Assembly (NCBI RefSeq): GCF_000219535.2
Contig: NZ_CP007806.1
Location: forward strand, 1,584,501 to 1,648,500
DNA: 64,000 nucleotides
Origin: Brevibacillus laterosporus LMG 15441
GTDB lineage: Bacteria; Bacillota; Bacilli; Brevibacillales; Brevibacillaceae
Direction: 5' to 3'
The position numbers were made by a program, and so were the translations under genes. The notes beneath the pieces are model-generated. The model did not search any database. It saw only the letters and a list, made by a program, of their open reading frames with translations, and had not been told where the DNA came from. Of the stretch, positions 26,021 to 43,766 are shown in pieces. Within the stretch, counting starts at the first letter, position 1, and the number at the start of each line of letters is the position of its first letter.

Positions 26021-26024
26021 GTGA

Positions 26025-26446: not shown

Positions 26447-26452
26447 AAGCGT

Positions 26453-26587: not shown

Positions 26588-26703
26588 GCCTTGTTCGCCA
26601 TAATGAGCCAAATGAATCATGTAGAAAAGATTCATAGAGTGGACAGGTTTGGTTAGGTTTGAGTACTGAGGATTCTATATAACTGGAAAAGGGGAGATGA
26701 TCT

Positions 26704-28215: not shown

Positions 28216-28257
28216 GCTACTTATATCGTATTATGAAGCTTACTAGAATCTATACCG

Positions 28258-28306
28258 GCAAGCAGCCGGGCATCCATTAACACGGTTGTGCCCGGTTGCT
28301 TATTTT
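28258..28306 (+). terminator. Intrinsic terminator of the chemoreceptor gene
   Basis: GCAAGCAGCCGGGCA pairs with TGCCCGGTTGCTT around a loop, followed by a T-run. Confidence 0.85.
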
Positions 28307-28339
28307 TATGCAGGTAGGATGTACGATGAACAAAGTTTT

Positions 28340-28483
28340 TTAATTCCGTTGCTTTAGGTATTCCTCAAGTTGAATAGATATGTACATCAACACTCCCACA
28401 AGTGCCCCAACCATCACACCGTCCAAGAAAAAGCCGATACTTCCCCCAACTAAAGCAAACGTCATTACCTTTGTACCCATCAT
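28340..28483 (-). CDS. 47-aa small membrane protein
   Basis: A short frame with a strong ribosome site (AAAGGAGA, 7 bases before ATG 28483). It encodes a hydrophobic glycine-rich span (FALVGGSIGFFLDGVMVGAL) and an amphipathic tail ending YLKQRN. The glycine pattern resembles small channel or holin-like proteins. The terminator of the preceding plus-strand gene lies just beyond its 3' end. Confidence 0.6.
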   Translation of the reverse strand: MMGTKVMTFALVGGSIGFFLDGVMVGALVGVLMYISIQLEEYLKQRN

Positions 28484-28559
28484 AGTAGTATCTCCTTTTT
28501 TACTAGAGTTGAAGTTTTTATTATATCAATAGTTACAATGTTTTTTGTATACCAAAAAA

Positions 28560-29759
28560 TCAGTTTTTCATTGGGTGAGGTGGGCTTGCCACATCTATTT
28601 CCTCTGTAGCAGAACTCAATATCTTTATTTTTATCATGATGAAGAAGAAAGCAAGCAAGGCAAATGTAATTCCGCTCCAAATGAGCTGATGTATGCCCAG
28701 TTGAGAGATAAACCAGCCACCAATAGAAGTTCCCAACGTAATTCCAAGATTGGAGAATGAGACAAATAAACTGTTGCCAAATTCAGGAGATTCTTTTGCC
28801 TCAGTCATGAGCCATGTTTGGCTGACGATTAGCCCTCCAGAATGTATGATTCCCCAAAAGAATACGACAGCCGCCATTGGAATGAAAGAAGAACCAAAAT
28901 AGTAAGCAAGTACGTAAATTACTATATAGAGAAGAGGAAACGATATCACTGTCTTCCTCATGTTTTTTTGTAAGGAAGACCCGAATAAAAAATTGCCAAA
29001 AATCATAATGAGGCCAAACAGCATCAACATGAAACTAATCCATGAGCCGTTCATGTGTGTTACCTGCCCCAGATATTCAGCAAAATAGCTATATACAGTA
29101 AACATAGCTGCAAAGATGCATATAACTGTGGCGATATTTACCCATAGTCCTGGTTTACGTAATATGCTAATCTGCTTTCCATAAGACATCTTTTCTTTAA
29201 CAGGCATGGAGGGGAGCCAAAAAAAAATTCCTGCAAAAGCAATCGCGCTTACAATAGCCCCAAGCAGAAAAGCGGCCTCTAACGAGAACTGCTCGGCGAG
29301 AAAAGAAGTTAAAGGTATACCAAAGGCAAATCCGACAGTTATCCCAGCAAAAACCTTTGTAATTGCATGCCCGCTTTTTTCTAAAGGGACAAGTTTGGCA
29401 GCAGTTACGAGAGCCACTGAAAAAAAGATGGGATGAAAAATAGCAGGCAGAATACGGAAAGCTAGCATCATCTTGAAACTAGTTGTATAAGCGTAAACCA
29501 TATTTGAAATCATGAACATAAGGACTGCGGTTAACAGAATTACTTTTCGATTGATGCCAGAAGCAAGCAATGTCAGAAATGGACCTGAAATAGCAACGAC
29601 TAAAGCAAAGATACTTACAAGTAGTCCAGCTTGTGAAGTTGTTATGTTAAATTTTTGTGTGATCTGAGGGAGAACCCCTACAATCCCCATTTCAGTGGTA
29701 ATAATACCAAATACACCTAAAGCTAGCATCATGATAAGAAGAGGGTTAAGCTTTTTCAT
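28560..29759 (-). CDS. MFS transporter (arabinose-efflux/NepI-like DHA1 group)
   Basis: 399 aa, twelve helices, start MKKLNPLLIMMLALGVFGIIT and TTEMGIVGVLPQI typical of the AraJ/NepI/YdhP group of sugar, nucleoside or drug exporters. GGAG precedes ATG 29759. Its promoter carries the same dyad as the promoter of the ArsR-type gene upstream, so the two form a regulator/efflux unit. Confidence 0.87.
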   Translation of the reverse strand: MKKLNPLLIMMLALGVFGIITTEMGIVGVLPQITQKFNITTSQAGLLVSIFALVVAISGPFLTLLASGINRKVILLTAVLMFMISNMVYAYTTSFKMMLAFRILPAIFHPIFFSVALVTAAKLVPLEKSGHAITKVFAGITVGFAFGIPLTSFLAEQFSLEAAFLLGAIVSAIAFAGIFFWLPSMPVKEKMSYGKQISILRKPGLWVNIATVICIFAAMFTVYSYFAEYLGQVTHMNGSWISFMLMLFGLIMIFGNFLFGSSLQKNMRKTVISFPLLYIVIYVLAYYFGSSFIPMAAVVFFWGIIHSGGLIVSQTWLMTEAKESPEFGNSLFVSFSNLGITLGTSIGGWFISQLGIHQLIWSGITFALLAFFFIMIKIKILSSATEEIDVASPPHPMKN

Positions 29760-29808
29760 GTAAATAAATCTCCATTCTTATTTGTATCGGTCATTTTACA
29801 TACAAAAA

Positions 29809-29836
29809 ACTATATATCTATATATATAGATGTTAA
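29809..29836 (-). promoter_or_regulatory. MFS promoter whose spacer is a palindromic operator
   Basis: On the minus strand: TTAACA, a 16-base spacer, TATAGT. The palindrome ATCTATATATATAGAT (29816-29831) fills the spacer. The same architecture occurs at the promoter of the adjacent regulator gene (30184-30211). Confidence 0.7.
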
Positions 29837-29864
29837 AGGTAAAAAAGAAAAGCCTCCTTTCCTT

Positions 29865-30176
29865 TTATAGTTCTTGTTGGACATACTCGGCAAATTCCCG
29901 AATGGTCTTTTCGTTTCGTCGATAATACGTCCATTTTCCGATTCGTTCTGATTCCAACAACCCAGCTTTTTGCATGGTTAACAAGTAACTAGAAATGACT
30001 GATTGGGCTAAACCAGATTTTGTTTGGATATCGCCCACACATACACCAATTTGAAAACTCAGTCCTTGTTGTAAATAAGGTCTTTCATCAAAGAATTCCC
30101 CTGGATTTTTTAACCATAGTAAGATTTGTCGACGAGTCTCGTTAGTCAGTGCTTTATAAATCAATGAAGGTTCCAT
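29865..30176 (-). CDS. ArsR-type winged-helix regulator
   Basis: About 103 aa from ATG 30176. ArsR-like start (SLIYKALTNETRRQILLWL), recognition helix region KSGLAQSVISSYLLTMQKAGLL and wing RIGKWTYYRRN. No metal-binding CxC motif, so a non-metal signal is likely. The start has no ribosome site; the -10 TATAAT ends 7 bases before it, so the mRNA is probably leaderless. A longer frame to 30227 would run through the promoter. Confidence 0.85.
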   Translation of the reverse strand: MEPSLIYKALTNETRRQILLWLKNPGEFFDERPYLQQGLSFQIGVCVGDIQTKSGLAQSVISSYLLTMQKAGLLESERIGKWTYYRRNEKTIREFAEYVQQEL

Positions 30177-30183
30177 AGAGATC

Positions 30184-30211
30184 ATTATATCTATTTTTAT
30201 AGATTTGTAAA
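30184..30211 (-). promoter_or_regulatory. Promoter of the ArsR-type gene with operator in the spacer
   Basis: Minus strand: TTTACA (30206-30211), 16-base spacer, TATAAT (30184-30189). ATCTATTTTTATAGAT on the plus strand (30189-30204) has the same ATCTAT/ATAGAT arms as the MFS operator. Repressor binding here would block RNA polymerase. Confidence 0.7.
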
Positions 30212-30295
30212 TATAAGAAGTGTGCATTGTAATTTTTTAAGATGGCTGAAAGGAAAAAGCCGCCCCGAATAGGAGCAACTTTTTGGCATTGCTAT

Positions 30296-31102
30296 CTATT
30301 TAAACTGGCTGGTAAGCCTCTTCTCTAGGTAACTGACACCTTGGTACATCAAAGCCGCGACGAGAGCAATGACAAAGAGAGACACCATGACCAGGGAAAA
30401 ATTAAATACCTGAAAGCCATAAATAATGAGATAGCCTAAGCCTTTTTGAGCAACTAGAAATTCTCCAACAACAACACCTATCCAAGAAAGTCCGACATTT
30501 ACCTTTAAGGATGAAATAATCGTTGGCATTGTGGCAGGAAATATCACCTTGGCAAACATCTGACTTTTGCTTGCACCAAAGGTCTGCATGACCTTCAGAT
30601 AGTTAGGATTAACCTCACGGAAGCCGGAATAGATCGTGATGGCGGTAATAATAATCGAAACGGAGAGGGTCGTGGCAATTATGGAGATGACTCCGGGACC
30701 TAAACCTACAATGAACAGAGGACCCAATGCTACTTTAGGCATGCTATTTGCGATAATTAAATAGGGCTCTAGCACGCGCGATAAAAATGGGGACCACCAA
30801 ATCATAATAGCCAGTAAGGTACCAAGGAGAGTTCCGAGTAAGAAGCCAATGATCGTTTCAAGGACGGTTACGCTGGTATGCATCAACAAGCTCATATCAG
30901 CCATCTTTTCGATAAACAAACTCCAGATTCGGCTAGGTGAGCTAAACAATAGGACATCAATCCATTTGAAGAAAGCAGCCAATTCCCATGTGCCTAAAAA
31001 AACAAATAAGATGAGAAGCTGGGTGAGAAAAACTAACCATTTTGTACGTGTGACGCCATGTTTATACTGCTGATGAATATGATCAATGTTAATTTGCTCC
31101 AT
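30296..31102 (-). CDS. ABC transporter permease (SsuC/TauC/ThiX-like)
   Basis: 268 aa, about six helices, with the EAA-type loop (GASKSQMFAKVIFPATMPTIISSLKV region) that contacts the ATPase. The family imports sulfonates, taurine, nitrate or thiamine precursors. GGAGGGA precedes ATG 31102, which lies inside the 3' end of the ATPase gene (14-base overlap). It is last in the operon binding protein, ATPase, permease. Confidence 0.88.
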   Translation of the reverse strand: MEQINIDHIHQQYKHGVTRTKWLVFLTQLLILFVFLGTWELAAFFKWIDVLLFSSPSRIWSLFIEKMADMSLLMHTSVTVLETIIGFLLGTLLGTLLAIMIWWSPFLSRVLEPYLIIANSMPKVALGPLFIVGLGPGVISIIATTLSVSIIITAITIYSGFREVNPNYLKVMQTFGASKSQMFAKVIFPATMPTIISSLKVNVGLSWIGVVVGEFLVAQKGLGYLIIYGFQVFNFSLVMVSLFVIALVAALMYQGVSYLEKRLTSQFK

Positions 31103-31880
31103 CAGAACTTCCCTCCATCTCTCTCCACACGTGGTTATACAGATCGGAGAAGCCAGTCAATTGTCGAGCTTGGAACGGCAACGCCTGACGGATTAACTCT
31201 GGTATCTTCATTTCTGAACGAATGCGTCCCGGATTTCGATCTAATATGTAGATTCGGTCCCCCATAGCTACAGCTTCTTGTAAATCATGGGTGACTAAAA
31301 TAGCAGTTTTTTTGTGACGACGCAAGGTTTTGATAATAAGGTCTTCCAGCTTAAGCTTCGTCTGATGATCCAGAGCGGAGAAGGGTTCATCGAGAAGTAG
31401 GATTTCTGGTTGACAGGCAAGCGTTCGGACCAAGGCTACACGCTGTCTCATTCCGCCAGACAATTGCTGTGGAGAAGCTTTGCGAAAATGAATCAGCTCC
31501 ATTTCTTCCAGTAAATGCAATGCGTATTCTTCATTTGCTTTGCTGCGGATTCCCTGCACTTCTAATCCCAGAAACACATTCTCTTCTATGGTGCGCCAGT
31601 TAAATAAGTAATCCTGCTGAAGCATATAGCCAACCTTACGAGTCGTTCCTGTTAGCTGACTCCCGTCTACGTATATTTGACCTGCTGTAGGCTTTTCGAG
31701 TCCTGCTATGAGTGAAAGCAAGGTGGTTTTTCCGCAACCACTAGGGCCTACTAAACAGACGAACTCACCTTCCTCCACATGCAAGGAAATGTTGTTTACT
31801 GCCATAAATGCATTGCGTGGTGTTACGTATAGATGGGTGACATTATTTACCTCAATTTTTGCCTGAGGAGAAGGGGGCAT
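31089..31880 (-). CDS. ABC transporter ATPase (SsuB/TauB-like)
   Basis: 263 aa. Walker A GPSGCGKTT, Q-loop LQQDYL, signature LSGGM, Walker B ILLLDEPFSALD, H-loop VTHD. AGGAGG lies about 10 bases before ATG 31880. The gene follows the disrupted binding-protein gene by 3 bases and overlaps the permease by 14. Without the binding protein the importer should not work in this state of the chromosome. Confidence 0.92.
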   Translation of the reverse strand: MPPSPQAKIEVNNVTHLYVTPRNAFMAVNNISLHVEEGEFVCLVGPSGCGKTTLLSLIAGLEKPTAGQIYVDGSQLTGTTRKVGYMLQQDYLFNWRTIEENVFLGLEVQGIRSKANEEYALHLLEEMELIHFRKASPQQLSGGMRQRVALVRTLACQPEILLLDEPFSALDHQTKLKLEDLIIKTLRRHKKTAILVTHDLQEAVAMGDRIYILDRNPGRIRSEMKIPELIRQALPFQARQLTGFSDLYNHVWREMEGSSDGAN

Positions 31881-31883
31881 AGG

Positions 31884-32559
31884 CTATTTACCTCCTATCG
31901 CCTGATTGGCAAATGTTTCATTCACTAGTTTTTCATAGGGGATTGACTGTTTCAGCTCTCCAGCAGTCTTCATAATTTCTAATAATAATTCCCAGTCAGC
32001 TTTTTTTAATAAGGGAGTGGCTGAATAGGAACCCTGCTCCTGATAACGCTGAATAGAACGAGTGAGAATATCTGCTTTTACATCAGAAAAATAGGGAGTA
32101 ATCACTTTTGCCACTTCCTCGGCAGAATGAGAGTTTACCCATTGTTGCCCTTTATATATGGCGTTAGTGAATTTCTGAATATTCTTCTTGTTTTTCTGGA
32201 TATAGCTTTGTTTCGTCATATAGCTGGTATAAGGAACATTACCACTTTCCTTACCAAAGGAGGCTACTACATGACCTATGCCTTCTTGTTCGAATTGAGA
32301 TGCTGTTGGTTCAAAGAGTTGTACAAAATCTCCAGTACCTGAAGCGAAGGCGGAAGGGATATTTTTAAATTCAATGTTTTGAAGAACGGTAGCATCCGTT
32401 TGGGGCTCAATTTTATTTTTTTTAAGGACAAACTCGCCGACCATTTGAGGCATTCCACCCTTTCGTTGACCGAGGAATACCTTGCCTTTTACCTGATCCC
32501 ACGAAAAGTGCTTTGATTTGGACCGGGCGACTAAGAATGTGCCGTCAGTTTGGGTAAGC
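31884..32559 (-). pseudogene. ABC substrate-binding lipoprotein, 3' part (split by the element)
   Basis: The C-terminal two-thirds of an SsuA/NMT1-like binding protein, starting within QLTQTDGTFLVARSK. The start of the open frame at 32576 is element DNA. Joined to 39307-39626 at the TG dinucleotide it gives 996 bases, 332 codons with the stop, in frame, and restores NFAQLTQTDG across the joint. Ends TAA at 31884. Confidence 0.85.
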
Positions 32560-32590
32560 TGGGGGAAATTACACATATAACAGGGTTAAC
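32540..32590. other. Left attachment junction (attL)
   Basis: Host gene sequence ends at TG 32560-32561. The element side has a 17-base arm and then AACAGGGT (32579-32586), overlapping the integrase stop codon. This arm mirrors ACCTGTT at the right end. Confidence 0.75.
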
Positions 32591-33995
32591 GCATAGAATA
32601 TTCAATGCGAATTTTCTTGTTTCTCCCGCGTTCTCGGTAAATAATAACTTTTTCAAATAAACTATGAAGCAGCTCTTTTTTGCGAAATACGTCTGCTAAA
32701 CGATACTGTTCTCTGATATTGATCATTTTTTTAATTTTGTGACATTTTTCCTCTGGGGTTTCCTCTTCCACATCATAAGCATTGATGAGTTCTTGCAGTT
32801 CATTTTCCTTATGGTTCAAAGTGTTGATCTTTTCAAAAAGTGTTTCCTTTGGAATAGGATTGCTGTCGTTCATGAACACATCGTACCACTTTTCTTTTTG
32901 TGTTTGGATTTTTGCTATCTCATTCCTGATTTTATCTAAATCTAATTCGACTTCTCTTTGATTTTCGACCTTTTCTACGAAATACTCTTTTGATGTAATC
33001 AATCTATCGATCTCGCCGAGGAGAGGGTCTAATATTCTCTGATCATGGGTCATGCGGTTACAGCCCAGACAACGATAATACGTCTTTTGATCGCGATGAT
33101 CGTAGAACCCTTGCATATTGTGTTCCTCACAGTGCCCGCAACGTAGTATCCCTGTCAAAGGGAACTTTCCTTTCCTTGGCGATTGACCGGACTTTTCCTC
33201 CATTGTCTTTTTGGCCTTGGCGAACAATTGTTTTGAGATGATGGGAGGATGGTTATCCAGCACAATTTTATTACCCCATCGATATACGCCTATGTACATG
33301 TCGTTCAACAGAATATCCCGAACGGAAATATGGTTCCAACGTTTAGCGATACGTGGACGAACATCCATTTCATTAAGGTGTTTAGCAATCGACCGATACC
33401 CAAAACCTTCCACGTACCATTGGTATATCTTTTCTACTGTCTTTGCTTCCTGCTCAATGATTGTACATGTAAAATCCTTATCGAAGTGATAACCAAATGG
33501 GGAGTGCCCTCCAGGTTTCTTGCCCTCATCAATCATCTGTTCAATGCCGAATTTCACACGCTCTGCTAAGTTCTCCCTTTCCCACTGTGCCAGAGCCGCA
33601 ACAAGTGTAATGAATAGGCGCCCCATAGCTGTTGAGGTGTCATATATTTCAGTAGCTGATCTGAAAGCGACATCATGTTTTTCAAATAGCTGCAGCAGTA
33701 AGTAAAGATCGAGAACAGAACGAGTAAGTCGATCCAAACGGTACACTAGAACCATATCAAGGGTTCCTTTTTTGATATCCTTTAAAAGGCGTTGCATTTG
33801 TGGCCTTTGAATATCTTTTGCTGACCATCCTTCTTCGATATATTCCTCTACGATTTCCCAGCCTTGGCTTTTGCAAAATGCTCGGAGTCGTTCACGTTGA
33901 GCTGGGATGGAGAAGCCTTCTTTTGCTTGTTCATCTGTTGAAACACGTACATAAATCGCTACTCTTGTGATTATGACTTTTTTCATTAAACTCAC
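32586..33995 (-). CDS. Large serine recombinase (integrase)
   Basis: 469 aa. Resolvase-type catalytic domain with nucleophile Ser in YVRVSTDEQ (residue 19 from GTG 33995), RLDRLTRS and ERENLAERVKFG. Then a recombinase domain, a zinc ribbon (CGHC...CLGC) and a coiled-coil stretch (about 340-410) typical of large serine integrases. It catalyses attP x attB insertion through a 2-bp crossover. The start is GTG 33995 (GGAGAG 4-5 bases away) or ATG 33986. The 3' end touches attL. Confidence 0.93.
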   Translation of the reverse strand: MSLMKKVIITRVAIYVRVSTDEQAKEGFSIPAQRERLRAFCKSQGWEIVEEYIEEGWSAKDIQRPQMQRLLKDIKKGTLDMVLVYRLDRLTRSVLDLYLLLQLFEKHDVAFRSATEIYDTSTAMGRLFITLVAALAQWERENLAERVKFGIEQMIDEGKKPGGHSPFGYHFDKDFTCTIIEQEAKTVEKIYQWYVEGFGYRSIAKHLNEMDVRPRIAKRWNHISVRDILLNDMYIGVYRWGNKIVLDNHPPIISKQLFAKAKKTMEEKSGQSPRKGKFPLTGILRCGHCEEHNMQGFYDHRDQKTYYRCLGCNRMTHDQRILDPLLGEIDRLITSKEYFVEKVENQREVELDLDKIRNEIAKIQTQKEKWYDVFMNDSNPIPKETLFEKINTLNHKENELQELINAYDVEEETPEEKCHKIKKMINIREQYRLADVFRKKELLHSLFEKVIIYRERGRNKKIRIEYSMR

Positions 33996-34218
33996 TTTCT
34001 CTCCATTTTATATACTTACCCATCTCAGTTGGGTTACCGTTACGTAGACAAATCTCATCTGAGGCTTCTTCGCATTGAATTTTATCTTCGTGAATGAGCA
34101 ATTTTACTGCAAATGCATTTACCTGTCTTTCAAATTTATCTGGATTAAGAGTTGGTTTTGCCCTAGGCAGTAAAAACGAATATGATTCCCAAGTACACGA
34201 GAGATTGTAAAAGGGCAA
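33931..34218 (-). pseudogene. ImmA/IrrE-type peptidase, C-terminal remnant
   Basis: A 95-codon frame with FERQVNAFAVKLLI and NGNPTEMGKYIKW, the C-terminal pattern of ImmA/IrrE metallopeptidases that cleave phage/ICE repressors. The N-terminal HExxH zinc site is absent from this frame and I do not find it upstream. The frame runs 65 bases into the integrase gene. Position between integrase and repressor matches int-immA-immR order. Confidence 0.6.
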
Positions 34219-34311
34219 TTAGTTTTGGTAACGTTTGACCAAGTTGTTTCTTGTTTCCTCTATTATTTACTTTTAATTGATGTTGCTCTTGATGTCATGT
34301 TCCTAATTCTT

Positions 34312-34686
34312 TTAATGCTTATTCATTTTCTTTGCTTCCCAGAATAATCCTGTCAAACCTTCCATGATACGCTACGAGCATTTTCATCTAATGGAATACC
34401 ATCAAACATCAGATCACCATCTTCTTGAAGCATTTTTCTAAAATCGCGATTATCTTTGAAAGTGGCCCAAAACGGAATTGATTCGCTCATTCCAGCATTG
34501 CCAAGCAAAAAGTCTACAGATTCATTGTGGATATCTGCTATTTTTTATCATTGTAAGATCTGGTTGTAAGATGTCATTTTCCTAAGCGTTATATCTAGGA
34601 CATTTTACTCCTAACAAATCTGTCATTTGAGCTTGGGGTACATGTCGTTTGTTCCTTAGTTTTGTTATGGGTTCTCCGATTTTCAT
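34312..34686 (-). pseudogene. XRE-family (ImmR-like) repressor, inactivated
   Basis: Starts MKIGEPITKLRNKRHVPQAQ with an HTH (MTDLLGVKCPRYNA), then hits TAG at 34582-34584 where related proteins have Trp. Reading on gives ENDILQPDLTMI, a frameshift, then ADIHNESVDFLLGNAGMSES and FKDNRDFRKMLQEDGDL, another shift near 34358, and finally MEGLTGLFWEAKKMNKH with stop at 34312-34314. Three lesions in about 125 codons: the immunity repressor is dead. Confidence 0.8.
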
Positions 34687-34699
34687 AAGTGTTGTCCTC

Positions 34700-34710
34700 A
34701 ACGAATCGTT
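34700..34710. promoter_or_regulatory. Candidate operator between divergent repressor and early genes
   Basis: AACGA-A-TCGTT is a perfect 5-1-5 dyad in the 55-base gap between the dead repressor gene and the small gene at 34742. This is the usual place for an ImmR/Cro-type operator. Confidence 0.4.
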
Positions 34711-34741
34711 GCATACATCTTCTACAAGGGAGATGGTGCTT

Positions 34742-34915
34742 ATGGAAGGTGGAAGAACGAGACCGGAAATTTGGGCAATCGGTAGACGGGAACCATCAAA
34801 AGAGGCTCTTGACCGATTCATTGAGATTTACCTTGATATTCTTACAGAGAACGAGCGAAAAGGAAGAGAACTGGCCATGAAAGCTGAGAAGGATAGTAAA
34901 TCAAGCGACTCCTAA
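34742..34915 (+). CDS. 57-aa small element protein
   Basis: AAGGGAG lies 9 bases before ATG 34742. The protein is soluble and highly charged (EALDRFIEIYLDILTENERKGRELAMKAEKD), probably helical. It is the first gene rightward from the divergent control region, the place of early genes in phage-like elements. No family recognised. Confidence 0.5.
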   Translation: MEGGRTRPEIWAIGRREPSKEALDRFIEIYLDILTENERKGRELAMKAEKDSKSSDS

Positions 34916-34937
34916 GGGGTCGTAAACATGGACAAGT

Positions 34938-35270
34938 TATGATAAGGAAGATAGCTGAAGACGATGATAAAAAAACGTACTCTATGGATGGCTGTAAACT
35001 CCGTATACAGAGAACGTCAATTACAGATCGCACAGGAACATTCTCGGCAGTCGATTTACACATTCCATACGAAAGAACTCCGTAAAGAACGCAAGATGAT
35101 CATAAAGCAGTTTGATAGTGAGAAAAAGCATAATGTTTTACTCGCACTTATGTTAAAAGCGGAGGACATATCGGAAGAGGCTTCATGAGCGGAGCGGCGG
35201 CTACATGGCGGAATATTGACGGTAGAATTGCGCTCCAATTAGAGAATAAGGTCATAGATGGTAACAGATA
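34938..35270 (+). other. Cluster of overlapping very small open frames
   Basis: Three candidates: 34938-35083 (48 aa, ending AVDLHIPYERTP), 34964-35188 in another frame (74 aa, with the possible internal start MIIKQFDSEKKHNVLLALML), and 35185-35271, whose ATG overlaps the previous stop as ATGA. All look protein-like but lack clear ribosome sites, and the first two exclude each other over most of their length. I cannot decide which are real. Confidence 0.3.
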
Positions 35271-35497
35271 AATAAAAGAAGGATACGATCAGTCGTGTAG
35301 CTTTTTTGTAGTAAATTTATATCATGAATGTTAAAGGTTAGTCACCTACGAGTGTCTATTTTTATGTCAATAACGAATATTCTTATCATAAGTATATTGA
35401 AAAGGCAGAATTAACGGAGTATTATATATTCATAATCTTTTATGTAATTTTTTTACAATAAAGGTTAATTGTTGAAATTAGGAGGAGGATGGTCAAA

Positions 35498-35941
35498 ATG
35501 AAAGTTGGACGTAAGTTTTTAATTTCATTAATGGGATTGTCTCTGATGTTATCAACAGGAGCGACAGGAGCATTAGCGAGTGAAAATGTAACCAACACCC
35601 CAAACCAATTTCCACCAAGTATTCATAAGTCTGAAAAAAGCGTTCTTCCAGTAGATGTTGCCCGTGAGAATTTTGTTAAAGACACACTTTACCATGCATT
35701 TTACCAAGTGGGTCAAGGAAAAAAGAATGTGGTGGTTTATAATTTAAATCAAAGATATTCTCATAATCTACAAGGCATTCAAACATCTTATACAGTGCGT
35801 TATGGTAACATTCTTTATGGAGTGTGGGTTTTCACAGATGGTGAATTCTGGAATAATGGGGATGGCGGATGGATTAACGGGGGGTATCAAGGTAGTTTTG
35901 ACAGATATGCAGGATATGTACGATTCCATAGAATAAGTTAA
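35498..35941 (+). CDS. Secreted protein of unknown function in the element
   Basis: 147 aa from ATG 35498 (GGAGGAGG 9 bases upstream; ATG 35489 overlaps it). Signal peptide residues 1-30 ending ALA, then a spacer and a C-terminal domain of about 70 residues rich in Trp, Tyr, Gly and Asn (YGVWVFTDGEFWNNGDGGWI, GSFDRYAGYVRFHRIS). No cysteine in the mature part. The small beta-rich secreted form could be an antimicrobial or toxin domain, but I recognise no family. Confidence 0.7.
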   Translation: MKVGRKFLISLMGLSLMLSTGATGALASENVTNTPNQFPPSIHKSEKSVLPVDVARENFVKDTLYHAFYQVGQGKKNVVVYNLNQRYSHNLQGIQTSYTVRYGNILYGVWVFTDGEFWNNGDGGWINGGYQGSFDRYAGYVRFHRIS

Positions 35942-36003
35942 AATCCCGTTTGAGGGGATGGCTAAATCAAGGCAATCAGTTGACTTAATGTAAAAAGATT
36001 GCA

Positions 36004-36066
36004 AGCGAGCTACTGCAAATTAGCATCATGATTAATCTTGATGTAGATGCACTGGCTCGCTTTTTA
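36004..36066 (+). terminator. Long-hairpin terminator after the secreted protein gene
   Basis: AGCGAGC (36004-36010) pairs with GCTCGCT (36055-36061), continued inward by TGCA/TGCA and CATCA/TGATG, and followed by Ts. Confidence 0.6.
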
Positions 36067-36210
36067 TATGCTCGAAAGATGTATATAAAAGTTACAGATG
36101 CCTTGTTACAAACGAAATTGGCAGATGAGTTGAGGGTTGCTAGTGGTCAAAAAGCACAAAATAATGGTGTCTAGTGACATAAATATGGTCACTATTATGT
36201 AAGGTTATAT

Positions 36211-36256
36211 TTGAAATTCCTTCGCATAATGATAATATAGCCATATAGCTATATGG
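36211..36256 (+). promoter_or_regulatory. ars operon promoter and ArsR operator
   Basis: TTGAAA (36211-36216), 16-base spacer, TAATAT (36233-36238), then the perfect palindrome CCATATAGCTATATGG (36241-36256) over the transcription start region. ArsR would sit here and leave on binding arsenite. Confidence 0.7.
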
Positions 36257-36281
36257 TAATTATAAAGGAGGCATTATTCAC

Positions 36282-36605
36282 ATGGATTTAATCCAACTTT
36301 CTTCGGCCTTAAAAGCATTAGGTGATCCAACCCGGCTTAAAATCATTGCCTTATTAAATCAAAGGGATTGTTGCGTATGTGAATTAGTCCCGATCTTCGG
36401 TATTTCTCAACCTTCGATATCTAGGCACATGAGTCGTCTAAAGAACGAGAATTTAGTAAATGAAACACGGAAAGGGCAATGGGTCTTTTACTCTTTGAAT
36501 CGTTCAACTATGGAGGAGATTGGTTTGTCTCTTGCACAGCTACCAGATTGCACCTCAGATTTTGAGAAATTGAAAGAAGCTAACTTACAGATTACTTGCG
36601 AATAA
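36282..36605 (+). CDS. arsR: Arsenical resistance operon repressor
   Basis: 107 aa, ArsR/SmtB winged helix with the arsenite-binding segment DCCVCEL in the recognition-helix lead (two adjacent Cys and a third two residues on), [18 protein letters not shown] and wing [10 protein letters not shown]. It represses the operon until As(III)/Sb(III) binds. A ribosome site AAAGGAGG precedes ATG 36282. It lies 37 bases upstream of acr3. Confidence 0.93.
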
Positions 36606-36642
36606 ACCCTCTACTAAAAAGGAAGGTAAGGGAGATGTAACA

Positions 36643-37698
36643 ATGAGTAATATGGGGAAAAAACGTCTTTCGTTTTTAGATCGCTACCTAACACTTTGGA
36701 TTTTTTTGGCTATGGGCATTGGAGTTGGTTTTGGGTTTATCTATCCACAGCTTGTAAATGAGTTAAATAGCTTACAGGTGGGAACCACATCCATTCCCCT
36801 TGCAATGGGTCTTATCTTAATGATGTACCCACCACTTGCAAAGGTACGTTATGAAGAAATGGGAAGAGTTTTTAAGGATACTAAGGTTTTAATCCTTTCT
36901 CTTGTTCAAAACTGGATTATCGGCCCAATTTTAATGTTTGGTCTTGCCATCTTATTCCTATCAGATAAACCAGAGTACATGGTCGGCTTAATTATGATTG
37001 GCTTGGCACGGTGTATTGCTATGGTAATTGTTTGGAATGATCTTGCCAAAGGAGATACAGAATATGCCGCTGGATTAGTGGCATTTAATTCAGTTTTCCA
37101 AATGCTTTTCTTTTCAGTGTATGCCTATTTATTTGTAACTGTCATTCCAGAATGGTTGGGGTTAGAAGGTGCAGTTGTTTCGGTCACTATGGTGGAAGTA
37201 GCGAAGTCTGTCATGGTTTACCTAGGAGTTCCATTTCTTGCAGGGATGCTGACACGTTTTACTCTTGTAAAAGTAAAAGGGCGTCACTGGTATGAAAACG
37301 AGTTTATTCCTAAAATTAGTCCCATCACCCTAATTGCTTTACTCTTCACCATTATCGTGATGTTTTCCTTAAAAGGCGATACCATTATCAGCTTACCACT
37401 CGATGTAGTTCGTATTGCAATCCCATTACTAATTTATTTTGTACTCATGTTTTTTATTTCTTTCTTTATGGGAAAGAAAATGGGAGCAAGCTACCCAGTT
37501 ACAACAACACTTGCTTTTACGGCAGGTAGTAATAACTTTGAACTTGCGATCGCTGTTGCAGTAGGAGTGTTTGGTATTCACTCCGGTGCTGCCTTTGCAG
37601 CAGTTATTGGCCCATTAGTAGAAGTACCAGTCATGATTGCACTAGTCAATGTAGCTTTCTGGTTTAAACGAATGTATTTTACTGAACAGAAAACGTAA
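36643..37698 (+). CDS. acr3: ACR3-family arsenite efflux permease
   Basis: 351 aa with ten helices. Conserved [16 protein letters not shown] contains the essential Cys of Acr3, and [19 protein letters not shown] is the family signature. It expels arsenite by proton exchange. GGGAG precedes ATG 36643. No arsenate reductase (arsC) follows, so the operon gives arsenite resistance only, unless a reductase lies elsewhere. Confidence 0.95.
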
Positions 37699-37782
37699 AT
37701 TATAGGAGCCTGTCGATTCGGGTAAGGGTTGCAAGTGGACAGGAGCCAGAGAATCAAAAGTAAACAGTTACTAGAAACGAGA

Positions 37783-37816
37783 AAACGTCCGAATACGAGG
37801 GAGATTCGGACGTTTC
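37783..37816. terminator. Hairpin terminator after acr3
   Basis: AAACGTCCGAAT pairs with ATTCGGACGTTT around a 9-base loop. The T-run is short, but the stem is perfect and lies between converging genes. Confidence 0.65.
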
Positions 37817-37853
37817 ACATAATAATTTTTTAGTTAAGATGAAAAGAGGACGG

Positions 37854-38042
37854 CTATTCCTCTTTATCCTTGTATATTTTATCCAAAAGGATAGAAACAA
37901 CGAAGAATACTACTACAAAAATTAAGAAACGAACAAACGCTGTAATAAGCCAACTATCAGCTATATTCATTTCTTTTGTAACTTGCATAGTACCATATAC
38001 AGAAAAAATAGTTAGAATGAACTTTAAAGTTTTTGAGTTCAT
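37854..38042 (-). CDS. 62-aa membrane protein, possible immunity partner
   Basis: AAGGAGATAAA precedes ATG 38042. Two membrane helices (about residues 5-20 and 33-53) and a charged end DKIYKDKEE. It starts 20 bases after the secreted-protein gene at 38063-38575, in the same direction. A short two-span protein right after a secreted hydrophobic-tailed protein is a bacteriocin/immunity layout; this is inference only. Confidence 0.6.
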   Translation of the reverse strand: MNSKTLKFILTIFSVYGTMQVTKEMNIADSWLITAFVRFLIFVVVFFVVSILLDKIYKDKEE

Positions 38043-38062
38043 TTTATCTCCTTTCTGTTTTA

Positions 38063-38575
38063 TTAAATCAGAGCATACACGATACCTTGTGCAATAATTC
38101 CGCAAGATTTTGCAACCCAACCCCAGACATATGGCTCCAAAGCTTTAGTTACAGTATCTTTCACTTCATCCAACGGCCCCATTAAAATATAGGTGTTCCA
38201 AGCGAAAATCCATTTTTCCTCTGTAAGTTTTTCTTTTACTATGTCTGGGAATTTAGCATATATTTTTTTCGGTAACTCCCTTTTCACATACCCTTTCCCA
38301 AAATATTTCATTAGCTTTGTTCCAAGAGAAACAAAACCCTGTGCTTCAAGTTGTGCAGGCTCTTTTACTACTACCCTTGGTGCAGTTTCTAAAATGTCCT
38401 TAGCAGTTTCTTCGATAATCTTATCCATTTCTTGTTGTGACATTGGAGTTTGGTAAGAAACTGATTGTGACACTTTTTCTTGAGCAAACGCGCTGGTCGC
38501 CGGAGCTATAGCAGTCCCTAGAAAACCAACCGTAGATAAAATTGCAATTCCTTTAATAAACTTTTTGTTCATCAT
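38063..38575 (-). CDS. Secreted protein with hydrophobic C-terminus, unknown
   Basis: 170 aa. Signal peptide 1-31 (ending SAFAQ), a helical charged middle (SQQEMDKIIEETAKDILETAP), and an end rich in Trp and hydrophobic residues (EPYVWGWVAKSCGIIAQGIVYALI pattern at 147-170) with the only mature Cys. The C-terminal segment could be a membrane-active peptide. The ATG pair at 38570-38575 has only a weak site. No family recognised. Confidence 0.65.
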   Translation of the reverse strand: MMNKKFIKGIAILSTVGFLGTAIAPATSAFAQEKVSQSVSYQTPMSQQEMDKIIEETAKDILETAPRVVVKEPAQLEAQGFVSLGTKLMKYFGKGYVKRELPKKIYAKFPDIVKEKLTEEKWIFAWNTYILMGPLDEVKDTVTKALEPYVWGWVAKSCGIIAQGIVYALI

Positions 38576-39075
38576 AAAGTGTAGCCTATTTTCCTAATGT
38601 TTTCAATAAAGTGATATTTTTACATTAGCGATTTCATTTTCAACTAAAGGATTGTCTCATATTAACATGTTGTAAACCTCCTAGAAGGTCTTTAGTGAAT
38701 AGCTGAAAAGCGGCTTTTTAATTATGCCCCCTACTGGGTTTCGTAACGTTTTCCGTACAGCTTATTCATATCGACCAACTAGCGTCTAAGCTTCTGTAAA
38801 TCATCTTTCGATTGGGTGTTTTCCATTTCACATTCCTTTATTTGAGTGATACAATTAATCCGAATAACAATTTTTGTTATTCACGACAGGGGCGTTCCAA
38901 TTAGTTTGATGGCTAGGGGAACGTCCTTTTGAAGTGTAAACAAACCTAATTCTAATCCTCCTTTCTTCCTCTTGTGCAATATTTTACCAACCGTATTGTT
39001 TTTTCTACAAAATAGAAAAAAGGCGAAACACTCAACAAAATTTGACAAACTATTACATAATTCGCACTTTGGTAT
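38576..39075. other. Gene-poor right part of the element
   Basis: No convincing gene. Minus-strand frames are short and lack sites. A strong AGGAGG is followed only by ATG-TTA-ATA-TGA (38667-38678 region). Another hairpin (GGCGTTCC with GGAACGTCC, about 38889-38926) has a short T-run on the plus strand. Confidence 0.4.
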
Positions 39076-39112
39076 AAATAAAAAGAACACCACTCTGTAA
39101 AAAGTGTGGTGT
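39076..39112 (-). terminator. Minus-strand terminator just inside the element
   Basis: On the minus strand ACACCAC pairs with GTGGTGT around a loop and is followed by TTTTTATTTAT. It would stop transcripts that enter the element from the truncated binding-protein gene. Confidence 0.6.
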
Positions 39113-39282
39113 CCACTGGAAAAATTTCCAAATGATTAATGTCCAGGGTCTTCGTTATAACCTTTTGAGCTGAATACGTTTCTGGATATGATTCCGTAAA
39201 TTTATAGTACATACCGAACTAGTCCGCCTTCCCGCCAAACCCAAATTAACTATAATTCAAAGTAAAATGATGAGGTTCATTT

Positions 39283-39325
39283 ACCTGTTGTAAAGTTAAC
39301 TTCAGATGAGCAAAATTAATGATCG
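39283..39325. other. Right attachment junction (attR)
   Basis: Element arm ACCTGTT (39283-39289), 17 bases, then TG (39307-39308) and host gene sequence. Mirror image of the left arm about TG. Confidence 0.75.
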
Positions 39326-39626
39326 GATCTTGCCCACCCTGTTGATCGACATAAATGCTGGTCTCGGACCCCACCAATGCGACATCAATGCCATTAGATA
39401 GCAGGGAGGTCATTGTTTTGTCGCCACCCCAAGTAGTTATGACTTCGACCTCCAAGCCCTCTTCTTTGAAAAATCCCTTTTCTAAAGCAACGTATTGTGG
39501 AGCGTAGAAAAGAGAGCGTGTAACCTCTCCTACTCGGAGCTTATTGGTATCGCTACTGGAACAGCCGGTCAAAAAGCTGAAAAGCCCTAGGCAAAGAATA
39601 ATGCCTAGGATAAGGAATTGTTTCAT
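39309..39626 (-). pseudogene. ABC substrate-binding lipoprotein, 5' part (split by the element)
   Basis: Starts ATG 39626 behind AGGAGG. Lipoprotein signal with lipobox LTGC (Cys 22), then the binding-protein start KLRVGEVTRSLFYAPQYVA and VALVGSETSIYVDQQGG. The frame runs 63 bases beyond the junction into the element, ending at 39246 with unrelated residues. See the entry at 31884-32559 for the other half. Confidence 0.87.
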
Positions 39627-39832
39627 GATAAAACCTCCTAGGCGTTTCGTTTTACTCTAACCTATGCCAGATTGCGGTGAATGGTGAAAGTGTAAAAAAT
39701 AGTAAGAGGTATGAATCATGATGCCTTTCGGAACTGTAATGGTAGAAGGTTAGATGAAATTTTGCTCCAAATATGATAAGATTGGTAAAATATGCACGTG
39801 GATTTTACATAAAGGATGGAGGTGGATAGGGC

Positions 39833-40777
39833 ATGCAGATTGTTTTTCTTGGAACTAGCTCAGGCGCCCCTACCACTAAGCGGAATGTATCGGGTATCGG
39901 ACTTCGTCTCATGGATCGAGGCGCGTGGTGGCTCATTGACTGTGGGGAAGGTACGCAACACCAAATCATGCGTTCTGTGCTGAATATTTCGCAGTTGGAA
40001 AAGATCTTTATTACGCATTTGCATGGCGATCATTTATACGGATTAATTGGCATGCTTGCCAGTCGTTCTCTACGCGGGGCTGAAACAGGCGGAATTACGC
40101 TATATGGTCCAAAAGGCATTGATGAGTATGTACAAGCCATCATGCGCATTAGTCCCGTTCATTTACAGTATCCCCTAATCATTAAAGTGGTGGAGGAAGG
40201 AATTATTTACGAGGATGATACCATTGTCGTGGAAGCGGCAAAGGTGAAGCATCGCGTTCCAGCCTTTGCCTATTCGATGACAGAGAAGCCACGTCCTGGT
40301 GCGTTTAAGATTGAATTAGCAAAAGAGGCGGGTATTCCTAAAGGGCCCATGTATGCTCAGCTTAAAGCGGGGGGGACTGTTCAATTAGAAGATGGCAGGG
40401 TTTTTCATGGTAAAGACTTTGTTCACCCACCTCAGCCAGGCCTTAAGGTTGCATTTAGTGGCGATACAATACCTTGTCAGAATATGGTGCGTTTAGCCCA
40501 AGGAGCAGATATGCTTGTGCACGAATCTACCTATGTTCATCAGCATCTGGAATTAGCTGAACGAAGTGGGCATTCCACAGCAAAACAAGCGGCAGAAATC
40601 GCTGTTGCAGCAGAAGCAAAAGGCTTATTGCTTACCCATTTGAGCCCACGTTATGATATTGAAGACGGACCGATTACTCTTGATGATATGCTACAGGAAG
40701 CGCAGGAGGTTTTTCTGAACAGCCAGATCGCTCAGGATTTGTGTGTCTATGAGGTAAAAAGAACGCGTTTGCTGTAA
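39833..40777 (+). CDS. rnz: Ribonuclease Z
   Basis: 314 aa metallo-beta-lactamase-fold endonuclease that trims tRNA 3' ends. Zinc motif HLHGDH at 62-67, the exosite loop RPGAFKIELAKEAGIPKGP, and later FSGDT, HESTY and HLSPRY. GGAGGTGG precedes ATG 39833. It lies right beside the disrupted ABC operon but is divergently placed and intact. Confidence 0.96.
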   Translation: MQIVFLGTSSGAPTTKRNVSGIGLRLMDRGAWWLIDCGEGTQHQIMRSVLNISQLEKIFITHLHGDHLYGLIGMLASRSLRGAETGGITLYGPKGIDEYVQAIMRISPVHLQYPLIIKVVEEGIIYEDDTIVVEAAKVKHRVPAFAYSMTEKPRPGAFKIELAKEAGIPKGPMYAQLKAGGTVQLEDGRVFHGKDFVHPPQPGLKVAFSGDTIPCQNMVRLAQGADMLVHESTYVHQHLELAERSGHSTAKQAAEIAVAAEAKGLLLTHLSPRYDIEDGPITLDDMLQEAQEVFLNSQIAQDLCVYEVKRTRLL

Positions 40778-40803
40778 CGTAAATGCTTGATAAGAATTAG
40801 GTA

Positions 40804-40843
40804 AACCCTTGTAGCATAAATAATAGTGCTGCAAGGGTTTTTC
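40804..40843 (+). terminator. Intrinsic terminator of rnz
   Basis: AACCCTTGTAGCA pairs with TGCTGCAAGGGTT, followed by a T-run. Confidence 0.88.
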
Positions 40844-40886
40844 CATTTGAAAGAAGAAATAATTGAATTAAATAAATATTTTTAAT

Positions 40887-40901
40887 TGGTAATGATTATC
40901 A
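40887..40901 (+). promoter_or_regulatory. Fur box, one mismatch
   Basis: TGGTAATGATTATCA matches the 7-1-7 Fur core except for one G. It lies 63 bases before the following gene start. Confidence 0.65.
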
Positions 40902-40963
40902 TTTCAGGTATAATTATCTTAGTTAAATCCTTTCAATGCATGCTGTAACAGGAGGGAGTAAAG

Positions 40964-42079
40964 ATGAATCTACCTATAGATTTCACGGTACAAACAAAAG
41001 CGCAGTTGCGAGAGGTAGTCGGCTCGCCGTCTGAGGCTTTACTAGAAAAAATATTACCTAGCTTAGAGGAACAAAGCCGCTACTTTATTCAGCATTCGTC
41101 CATTGTATGCGCTACAACTAAGCAAAGGAATCATTTCTTGCATGGGTCTATGTTTGGCGGGGAAAAGGGCTTTGTCCGTTTTATTGCTGAGAATAGTTTG
41201 CTTATCCCCATAAAAGAAGCTGGCGACTACTTGCGTTTGATTGAAAATATCAATGCGAATCCATTCATCGGGCTGCTATTTTTTATCCAAGGAGTAAGCG
41301 AAACCCTACGAGTTAATGGCAGGGCCAGCATTGTTAAAGAGAAAGCACTTCTAACCGCCCATTTTCCAGCAGATCAGCAGCTCACAGCAGCGATCCGGGT
41401 AGATGTCGAGGAATGCTTTTTTCATTGTGCCAAAGCCTTTATTCGCTCCAAGCTGTGGGATTCTACAACCTATCTACCTAGCTATCATACAGAGATGTCT
41501 TCAGCAAGTGACTTCTTCTACCAGCACACGATTCTAAGCGAACAAATGCAATCCTTTATTACACACGCTCCTTTCATTTGTGTCGGCACCAGTCAAAGGC
41601 AAGGAGGAGCTGATATATCGCCCAAGGGTGATCCGGCGGGCTTTGTACAAATACTAGATGAACGTACCATTTTGATTCCCGATCGTCCTGGTAACAAAAT
41701 TTGCGATAATTTTGAGAATATACTTGTTAATCCATCTATATGTGTTCTCTTTTTTGTTCCAGGTGTAGATCATATCCTCCATGTTCAAGGCAAAGCTTCT
41801 ATTGTAAAGGAAGCCAAAATATTAGAACCTCTCTCAATAGCAGGAAAACGCCCGGCGCTAGGAATATGGATAGAACTTCAACAAGTGACCTTAGCTTACT
41901 CGCAAGCAATGGTGGATGCGGGATTATGGAATCCGGCTAATCAAATAGATCGAAAGACGTTCCCAACGATGGGAGAGATGGTGATGAAACAACTAGCTCA
42001 TTCAAAATTAACAAAGGGAATGAGTGCCAAGGCCTTTGATGACATGGTCAGCCAAGAGTACAAGCAGCATTTATATTAA
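40964..42079 (+). CDS. Duplicated pyridoxamine-5'-phosphate-oxidase-like flavin-binding protein
   Basis: 371 aa of two copies of one split-barrel domain. Copy 2 (about 190-340) has the full pattern ISPKGDPAGFVQILDERTILIPDRPGNKICDNFENIL of the MSMEG_1061-type family. Copy 1 (about 40-185) keeps FIAENSLLIP, IGLLFFIQGVSETLRVNGRA but lost SPKGD. The Fur box upstream suggests a role under iron limitation, for example flavin or heme chemistry. AGGAGGGAG precedes ATG 40964. Confidence 0.8.
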   Translation: MNLPIDFTVQTKAQLREVVGSPSEALLEKILPSLEEQSRYFIQHSSIVCATTKQRNHFLHGSMFGGEKGFVRFIAENSLLIPIKEAGDYLRLIENINANPFIGLLFFIQGVSETLRVNGRASIVKEKALLTAHFPADQQLTAAIRVDVEECFFHCAKAFIRSKLWDSTTYLPSYHTEMSSASDFFYQHTILSEQMQSFITHAPFICVGTSQRQGGADISPKGDPAGFVQILDERTILIPDRPGNKICDNFENILVNPSICVLFFVPGVDHILHVQGKASIVKEAKILEPLSIAGKRPALGIWIELQQVTLAYSQAMVDAGLWNPANQIDRKTFPTMGEMVMKQLAHSKLTKGMSAKAFDDMVSQEYKQHLY

Positions 42080-42145
42080 GTGGGGATGAATCGGATCGGT
42101 GCTACTGACCGACTTTTACAATTAGGCAGCAGGAAACGAAGATTT

Positions 42146-42295
42146 TTAAAAGAGATGAGCTGCTACTGCCTCGGCATCATCAGCTTCCAACACACGTAAG
42201 GACTTTGCAGGTGGGGCAGGGAGAGTTGAGGGTGGACGTTTTTGGCTAATCCCGAAAGGAGGAGCGATCCCTTCTAGGAGAAATCCTGATAACAT
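42146..42295 (-). CDS. Possible 49-aa proline-rich small protein
   Basis: An open frame with biased, protein-like composition: hydrophobic start MLSGFLLEGIAPPFG, proline-rich middle RPPSTLPAPPA and acidic/alanine helix EADDAEAVAAHLF. No clear ribosome site, so it may be a fragment. No cysteine. No family recognised. Confidence 0.3.
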   Translation of the reverse strand: MLSGFLLEGIAPPFGISQKRPPSTLPAPPAKSLRVLEADDAEAVAAHLF

Positions 42296-42463
42296 CCACT
42301 ACTAATATGACAAGTCTAAAGACAGAAGATAGAGTTATCGTTGATGGCGGACAGGTGGGTGTTCGCCTTCTATATTTTAGGGCATTATTGCTTCGACGTT
42401 AAAAGTAAAATGTTTAACCCGGAGAAAAATTTATGAAATGCTACTAACACGTGCTAAAGCACG

Positions 42464-42595
42464 ATCTATCCTAAACATTACAGAACGGATGCTACTGCTT
42501 TGAAGTAATACTAATGGCGTCATTGTTCGTTCCGGTTGGCGTTCGGCGTTGTAATCATATCGGTATGACGCGCATTCTGTAAATTTAGGATAGAT
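42464..42595. repeat. 132-bp structured inverted-repeat element
   Basis: Outer arms ATCTATCCTAAA (42464-42475) and TTTAGGATAGAT (42584-42595), then TACAGAA (42479-42485) and TTCTGTA (42575-42581), then inner GCGTCAT (42517-42523) and ATGACGC (42565-42571), all nested. A direct repeat ATGCTACT occurs at 42438 and 42489. No terminator-type T-run follows. It could be a structured RNA or a small palindromic mobile repeat. Confidence 0.6.
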
Positions 42596-42758
42596 ACATA
42601 CTTTATAAGCCAGGGGTAGCATAGAGCTTACTTACATACCTCTCCCTTTATATGCTGGCTACTTTTTTGTAAAATAATGATTTTTTTCACGGATATACAA
42701 TATATTTACTTTTTTAAAAATATTTAGTGAAACAGTACAGTAGAAAGAGCAAGCTAGC

Positions 42759-43667
42759 TTATCGATGCATCGCAAATTTTGACGTTTTGCCAATACGTTT
42801 CGGCTTAAAATTAACCAAAACGATGCTTCCAGTAATCAATAAAAGTCCAACAATCAGCTTATATGTCACCTGTTCATGTAAGAAAAGCACGCTGAACATG
42901 ACGGAGATGAGTGGAATGAGAAAGGTAAAAGCGCCCACCTTACTGGCTTCGATTGTTGCGAGCAGTTGAAAATAAACTAGCCAGCCCAATGCAATGACGA
43001 AAATTGAGATAAAAAGAGTAACAATGATAAACGAGGTATTCCAAGCAATATCAGACCAGCTCTCAATGGCTGAACCTGAACCCAGCATGACGATGCCGCC
43101 AATTGTAATTTGTAGGGCCGTCATCCAAACAGAGTCGACCTGAGCTGCTGTTTTTTTCGTATAAACCGTCCCACAGGCCCAGCTAATGGCAGAGGCGATA
43201 GCGAATAGAATCCCCCATGCTGACATATTCCCACTAAACCCATCTGTAGTTAATGAGGCAACGCCGAAAAATCCGAGTAAAAGACCGAGAATTTTTAATC
43301 CGTACATGGATTCTCCAAGCCAAATCCAGGAAAAAACCCCGAGTAGCACAGGCTGAAGGAATACGATAGCCGAGAACAATCCGGCAGGCATGTACTGTAA
43401 GCCAATGGTTTGAAAGCCATAGTAGAGTATGATGTTCAAAGCTGAGGAAATGAGATAGATATGCCACGTTCCTTTTAAATGAAGCTGTTTTCGTTTCCAT
43501 ACAGCAAAGGAAATGAGAAGAAGGCCGCCGATAAATGTCCTCAAGCCAGCGAACAGCAGTGGCGGGGTATAGGTTAATGCGTATTTGGAAAGCGGCCAAT
43601 TAACGCCCCACATAAGAACCAAAAATGCGAGATATAGACCTGCCTTTATACGAGATTGTTGAAGCAT
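42759..43667 (-). CDS. EamA/DMT-family permease
   Basis: 302 aa, ten helices, two EamA repeats (WGVNWPLSKYALTYTPP at the start; LGESMYGLKILGLLLGFFGV and LHEQVTYKLIVGLLLITGSI at repeat ends). AAGGAG about 10 bases before ATG 43667; the frame is open to 43781 but without a site. It is divergent from a LysR regulator with 99 bases between the starts, so LysR control is likely. Confidence 0.87.
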   Translation of the reverse strand: MLQQSRIKAGLYLAFLVLMWGVNWPLSKYALTYTPPLLFAGLRTFIGGLLLISFAVWKRKQLHLKGTWHIYLISSALNIILYYGFQTIGLQYMPAGLFSAIVFLQPVLLGVFSWIWLGESMYGLKILGLLLGFFGVASLTTDGFSGNMSAWGILFAIASAISWACGTVYTKKTAAQVDSVWMTALQITIGGIVMLGSGSAIESWSDIAWNTSFIIVTLFISIFVIALGWLVYFQLLATIEASKVGAFTFLIPLISVMFSVLFLHEQVTYKLIVGLLLITGSIVLVNFKPKRIGKTSKFAMHR

Positions 43668-43766
43668 GTATATGTCACTCCTTGTCTTGGTGTCATTGTA
43701 CATGATAAAATGATTTCTCATATAAATAAAATGAATGTTTTTTATAGGGGGCATATCATTTTTGTT

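Follow-up and report, generated by a model that had tools for sequence, protein, structure and literature searches.

Introduction

Sporulation gene-intervening elements form an established class (PMC5595907, PMC4191935, PMC10747680, PMC8987985), and the loci for which such elements are named in the relevant passages of three of these sources are sigK, spsM, spoVFB, gerE and yabG; those passages do not name ytlA as such a locus (PMC4191935, PMC5595907, PMC10747680). The open-access literature was searched for ytlA and ytlC (subscription papers lie outside this scope), and no paper connecting an inserted element with the ytl operon was found. In this study, a 64,000-nt stretch of the Brevibacillus laterosporus LMG 15441 genome (the window; its genome is denoted G000, and positions are given in window coordinates) was analysed, in which an NMT1/THI5-like binding-lipoprotein gene on the minus strand, probably ytlA, is cut in two by a 6,747-bp element. 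The reading that we favour, with a probability of roughly 0.6, is that this is a decayed, prophage-derived sporulation gene-intervening element of the class of skin, SPbeta and gin, which would be excised in the mother cell.

Results

The 5' part (320 bases) and the 3' part (676 bases) of the split gene add up to 996 bases, which is the length of the uninterrupted gene in an element-free congener (G003; L018:5204-6199), where 331 amino acids are encoded and INFAQLTQTDG is read at the position of the joint. The original prediction had given the same coordinates and lengths for the parts, an in-frame joint reading NFAQLTQTDG, and intact ATPase and permease genes downstream (Table 1), and each of these held; the intact 331-amino-acid gene that it had looked for in related genomes is present in G003, and comparison with the empty site of G003 places at the crossover the TG that it had expected there. 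This dinucleotide (plus strand) is common to both junctions, which leaves the position of the joint uncertain by no more than 2 bp. Among the five genomes of the genus that were compared, the gene is whole in G001, G002 and G003, and in G000 and B. laterosporus MSSRFCCT15 (G004) it is interrupted, in both at one and the same codon; G000 and G004 are treated here as two species, represented by one genome each. A search of the whole window genome with PF13379 returned two matches, the two gene parts, and in summed length and in the reading across the joint the two parts together correspond to the intact gene. In-frame rejoining is given by any conservative site-specific integration, and therefore by itself says nothing about a switch.

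It is highly improbable that the parts act as separate proteins, or that only the 3' open reading frame (ORF) is translated, from an ATG inside the element. The 3' part is open from such an ATG (32576) in both G000 and G004; however, no ribosome-binding site was seen by eye before it, the signal sequence and the lipoprotein cysteine are found only in the 5' part, and a protein cut within its binding domain would be unlikely to work.

A sigma-K-type pattern, [A/C]AC-N-N15/16-CATANNNTA, was present upstream of the gene in 74 of 80 unique loci. These loci were G003 and the best 80 of the 282 confirmed, from which L111 (whose 5' part is on another contig) was left out, with the duplicates L017, L019 and L020 dropped; when the duplicates and spacers of 15-17 are admitted, the count becomes 76 of 83. 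The letters used for the sigma-K and sigma-E promoter calls are those which we take to be the consensus. Under a first-order Markov model of these sequences, the pattern occurred in a mean of 0.46 loci and, in 200 trials, in 4 at most; in the real sequences it was found in 77 of 1,450 upstream regions of ORFs in these loci, 10 of the 77 not being at this gene. The genes ytlA, ytlC and ytlD appear in a list of sigma-K sporulation genes (PMC3416734), YtlC2D2A is described, in the passage concerned, as an importer of unknown function (PMC11466899), and ytlC is mentioned among the sporulation genes sought in phages (PMC10294663). From gene order, neighbours and promoter, the split gene is probably ytlA, the first gene of the sigma-K operon ytlACD, and would be turned on only at a late stage of sporulation; the promoter count together with the sigma-K listing (PMC3416734) serves as a proxy for the element interrupting a sporulation gene. 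A perfect sigma-K-like string at 32572 on the plus strand, also present in G004, was taken as chance; it runs antisense into the recombinase gene of the element.

That gene encodes the element's own site-specific recombinase, a large serine recombinase (LSR) with an open frame, resolvase and recombinase domains, and a ratio of nonsynonymous to synonymous substitution rates (dN/dS) of 0.136. The LSR is 68% identical to the integrase of Geobacillus virus E2 and 78% identical to that of a 55.5-kb virus record (G435), in which helix-turn-helix repressor-type and ImmA-type (Peptidase_M78) genes lie beside the recombinase, and SSB, RecT and antirepressor-type genes further in; the first 2.3 kb of the window element can mostly be aligned to the recombinase end of G435, at 71-73%. 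On the minus strand, the AACAGG of the element's far arm is an inverted match to the CCTGTT of the other arm, and in four loci (L023, L025, L030 and L031) an apparent uncut phage attachment site (attP), CCTGT...ACAGG around GCA, stands just after the recombinase. Related integrase, attP arms and attachment site are shared with prophages of the Geobacillus virus E2 type, and these comparisons identify the element as related, in decayed form, to temperate phages with an LSR that uses codon 107 of ytlA as its attachment site. No phage replication or structural genes were recognised in the 6.7-kb element, its recognisable phage content being the LSR, remnants of repressor and ImmA-type genes, and small phage-like stretches. 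An imperfect sigma-K-like site with one mismatch lies at 35413, ahead of the gene for a 150-aa protein (orf150), in both G000 and G004. A scan of positions 24000-44000 against Rfam gave no match at the gathering threshold, and a search of viral contigs for relatives of the split gene yielded 19 pattern stretches, none of which was confirmed.

The same LSR clade was found at the same ytlA codon in seven genomes (G000, G004, G135, G402, G407, G412 and G429), which indicates that the arrangement is not due to chance. In one family (f37), five of 41 genomes (G135, G402, G407, G412 and G429) have the LSR directly before residues 103-104 onward, with the residues up to 111 found at another place and no stop inside any part; where both parts are on a single contig (three cases), a prophage-sized distance of 39-40 kb separates them. 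G412 shares coordinates with L111 (A. voinovskiensis DSM 17075), and G407 with L117 (A. amylolyticus), where the operon is followed by ytkD and then by ytzI and an S-ribosylhomocysteine lyase gene. The L117 record (NZ_CP015439.1), which holds this split operon and the lyase gene, is named a 258-kb plasmid. Among the best 80 of 282 confirmed loci, 78 gave a single match along the whole protein and two were split (L032 and L111), and in a class-wide sample 183 of 398 genomes were matched, of which at least seven were split (G000, G004, G135, G059, G091, G105 and G257). G343 looked split, but the ends of its two matches overlap, probably because of a frameshift, and it was not counted. A match to the recombinase was found in 30 of 59 genomes, the window's own included. 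As judged from these comparisons, the gene appears to have been cut repeatedly in related genomes and is probably rejoined on removal of the element.

A second LSR family cuts ytlA near residue 178 in eight of 84 matching genomes (250 genomes of family f3), with 6.9 to 23.1 kb between the parts in the seven that have both on one contig. The LSR of this family is present in all eight and is 75-79% identical to that of G059 and 27% identical to that of the window. In all eight split genes (G581 among them), the parts are open up to the joint, with flagged stops at or beyond it, and the 5' part keeps the sigma-K-type promoter. Not among the eight are G584, with the 3' fragment only and a piece of the second LSR, and G466, with an intact copy and a fragment. 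At nine of nine loci of this second family, the sigma-E-like sequence TAATATT-N14-AATACA[A/C]T precedes a 66-68-aa ORF and the recombinase; it departs from the consensus at one base, always the first of the -10 element, and at a second base in L139 and L144. Viral contigs yielded one stretch related to the second LSR, which was not confirmed. In G013, from the window's own family, the permease gene (ytlD) is split near its end by ~5.4 kb with its own LSR (L145:1094-7376) and ytlA is whole; this LSR is 40% identical to that of the window and 27% identical to that of the second family.

The G004 element carries the same LSR (93% identical), a phage-origin small ORF and orf150, followed by other cargo. 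Between G000 and G004, the 5' part of ytlA shows 2 nonsynonymous (N) and 13 synonymous (S) changes (dN/dS 0.04) and the 3' part 11 N and 20 S (dN/dS 0.14); pooled, 13 N and 33 S give P ~ 7e-9 under neutrality with an N fraction of 0.70. With G003 as outgroup, the changes in the 5' part fall as 1 N and 9 S on the G000 branch and 1 N and 3 S on the G004 branch (1 ambiguous site), and those in the 3' part as 3 N and 8 S on the G000 branch and 6 N and 9 S on the G004 branch (5 ambiguous sites). By these substitution counts, the LSR and both ytlA parts are under purifying selection between G000 and G004. The synonymous rate (dS) is 0.246 for the LSR and 0.188 for orf150, similar to that of the flanking genes (mostly 0.10-0.23), and thus the element appears to be about as old as its flanks, since after a recent exchange dS would be close to zero. 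The simplest reading is one insertion before the two species split, with the parts selected while split. The cI and ImmA genes are broken in both genomes, by different lesions, and the LSR is intact in both; because the lesions are not common to the two, the decay would have come after the two elements parted, and an argument for one defective ancestor from common cI and ImmA lesions was rejected.

Alternatively, the element may be an ordinary defective prophage in a dispensable gene, without regulated excision, the apparent constraint on the parts stemming from polymorphism or from branch time before the insertion; we consider this possible, though rather doubtful. Several points weigh against timed excision or in favour of such a prophage. 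The f37 members of the clade are prophage-sized insertions at the same site and may use the ytlA site for their own sake, and the gene is uninterrupted in 78 of the best 80 confirmed loci. Because each species is represented by one genome, the element might be polymorphic, present in some strains and absent from others, and selection could then be acting where the gene is uninterrupted; on the G004 branch the 3' part is the least constrained, and the dS of the LSR ranks with the highest values of the flanks. A search for sigma-E and sigma-K promoters driving the window LSR gave nothing above chance, and no directionality factor was recognised in the element. The missing LSR promoter is not decisive, as the SPbeta recombinase is described as constitutive, with only its factor under sporulation control (PMC5595907). 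Six of the 80 loci (L037, L039, L077, L079, L085 and L097) lack the sigma-K-type pattern, the loci in the 74-of-80 count are related, so that such counts are not independent, and the assignment as ytlA draws on gene order, neighbours and promoter rather than on comparison with the B. subtilis protein. Excision itself is proposed from sequence comparison. On the other hand, the dS of the element is close to that of its flanks, and the LSR, small ORF and orf150 stand at the same place in G000 and G004, which favours a single insertion before the species split; the phage regulators decayed while the gene parts and the LSR stayed intact; and LSRs of other lineages have inserted in this sigma-K operon, with open parts kept in all eight split genes of the second family.

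Beyond the phage-derived genes, the window element carries a cargo that includes an arsR-acr3 pair for arsenite efflux (Table 1). The skin element of B. subtilis also carries arsenic genes. The pair lies inside the element in the window (36282-37698) and outside it in G004 (L130:8733-10146; 94% identical), in a stretch that corresponds to the interval between window positions 54751 and 60735; given this difference in place and a flank-like divergence (acr3 dS 0.211), the pair seems to have moved within the genome.

The original prediction had likened the element to a reversible switch such as skin in sigK or SPbeta in spsM. The analogy to these elements agrees with the sigma-K-type promoter in 74 of 80 loci, the purifying selection and the decayed phage regulators; one-way excision in the mother cell is, however, likelier than a reversible, heritable switch. 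It is very unlikely that the element switches in vegetative cells, for instance under arsenic stress or through another phage, so that the importer would be heritably on or off. The arsenite-efflux cargo of the window would suit such a switch; however, this cargo is not common to the two elements, arsR-acr3 being outside the element in G004, and restoring in vegetative cells a gene with a sigma-K-type promoter would have no obvious effect. Phage serine recombinases are moreover described as needing a directionality factor to excise, so that free reversal is not expected (PMC5595907).

Two further observations concern neighbouring and related sequences. The MFS transporter gene beside the operon (window 28560-29759) has lost 557 bp in G004 (L017 near 4187). 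In sister genomes, related recombinases end beside a GSPLGLENSVTAG-type site; in four of eight loci examined (L011, L012, L014 and L015) this site runs on into the 3' portion of a gene for a trypsin-like (HtrA-type) protease (PF13365 for L014), and in two further loci of the eight (L010 and L016) there is only the short site. This is possibly another split gene.

Table 1. Features of the split operon and the inserted element, in window coordinates
Feature	Position	Strand	Remarks
5' part of split ytlA-like gene	39307..39626	-	start to within codon 107; 320 bases; PF13379, PF09084
3' part of split ytlA-like gene	31884..32559	-	within codon 107 to stop; 676 bases; PF13379, PF09084
Sigma-K-type promoter	39658..39686	-	upstream of split gene; CACC-N16-CATAGGTTA
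ATPase (ytlC-like), intact	31089..31880	-	PF00005; dN/dS 0.105 against G004
Permease (ytlD-like), intact	30296..31102	-	PF00528; dN/dS 0.062 against G004
Gene-intervening element	32560..39306		decayed serine-integrase prophage derivative with cargo; ends set against empty site of G003
LSR-side junction	32540..32590 (approximate)		TG core 32560-32561; element arm resembles attP arms of related phages
Far-end junction	39275..39330 (approximate)		TG core 39307-39308; element arm ends AACAGG on minus strand
LSR, 469 aa	32586..33995	-	PF00239, PF07508, PF13408 (weak zinc ribbon, below cut-off); phrog_95 integrase, 8e-129
ImmA-type metalloprotease gene remnant, internally deleted	33998..34250 (approximate)	-	phrog_87, 2e-5; aligned with phage G435 and G004
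cI-type repressor gene remnant	34319..34699 (approximate)	-	aligned with phage G435; largely deleted in G004
Conserved stretch of phage-origin small ORF (34649-34915)	34685..34915	+	kept in G004 and phage G435
150-aa protein (orf150), signal-peptide-like start	35489..35941	+	also in G004; dN/dS 0.030; no family match
Cargo: ArsR/SmtB metalloregulator	36282..36605	+	NF033788, PF01022
Cargo: ACR3 arsenite efflux transporter	36643..37698	+	TIGR00832, 472 bits
Cargo: 63-aa hydrophobic small protein	37854..38045	-	no family match
Cargo: 170-aa protein, signal-peptide-like start	38063..38575	-	no family match; similar DNA on Brevibacillus plasmids (90.7%, 83.3%)

Discussion

In the mechanism that we propose, an LSR clade of temperate-phage integrases attaches at codon 107 of ytlA, and the split would be tolerated because vegetative cells can probably do without the operon. 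During sporulation, the LSR and a putative directionality factor would cut the element out in the mother cell, and sigma-K would then transcribe the rejoined ytlA together with ytlC and ytlD, to the presumed benefit of the spore. The forespore, and hence the lineage, would retain the element, and since the mother cell is terminal, its excision would not be heritable. The proposed timing of excision derives from the target gene and from the second LSR family.

The other insertions suggest a broader possibility, on which we are evenly divided, namely that at least three serine-integrase lineages have converged on ytlACD as a docking site (at ytlA codon 107, near ytlA residue 178 and near the end of ytlD) in three bacterial families, and that an insertion there is harmless if the element leaves in time. 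The sigma-E-like promoter of the second family and its 67-aa candidate directionality factor would allow excision just before sigma-K expression, and timed excision would then be a recurrent control layer. If this is true, a transporter operon of unknown substrate has been cut repeatedly by different recombinases, and mother-cell operons may be a general refuge for serine-integrase elements. With the sites and a candidate factor named here, the locus also offers a direct way to ask whether it is their timely departure that lets such elements be tolerated.

Among the described systems, SPbeta in spsM of B. subtilis resembles the ytlA element in having a serine integrase, a split sigma-K mother-cell gene and a phage origin, and defective SPbeta versions are reported to keep their recombination genes; however, the target gene is another one, and sporulation excision and the factor SprB, according to the passages concerned, have been shown for SPbeta (PMC4191935), whereas here excision and a factor for it are putative. 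The skin element in sigK of B. subtilis and Clostridioides difficile is likewise a decayed prophage with a serine recombinase in a split mother-cell gene, but it splits a sigma-factor gene rather than a transporter gene, and its control by sporulation is described as established (PMC5595907, PMC10747680). In Bacillus cereus ATCC10987, gin is a serine-recombinase element in the late mother-cell gene gerE and has a putative regulator and metalloproteinase pair; it differs in its size of 28.6 kb, its three recombinase genes and its lack of phage genes, and its excision and the factor GirX are reported as shown (PMC5595907). The elements vfbin (spoVFB), yin (yabG) and vrin are also found in sporulation genes, but, as far as these sources describe them, in genes other than ytlA (PMC4191935, PMC5595907, PMC10747680). 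Geobacillus virus E2 and related temperate phages share with the element a related integrase (68% identical) and have an apparent uncut attP, CCTGT...GCA...ACAGG, beside it; unlike the window element, Geobacillus virus E2 is a whole phage, and its record matches the element over the integrase only.

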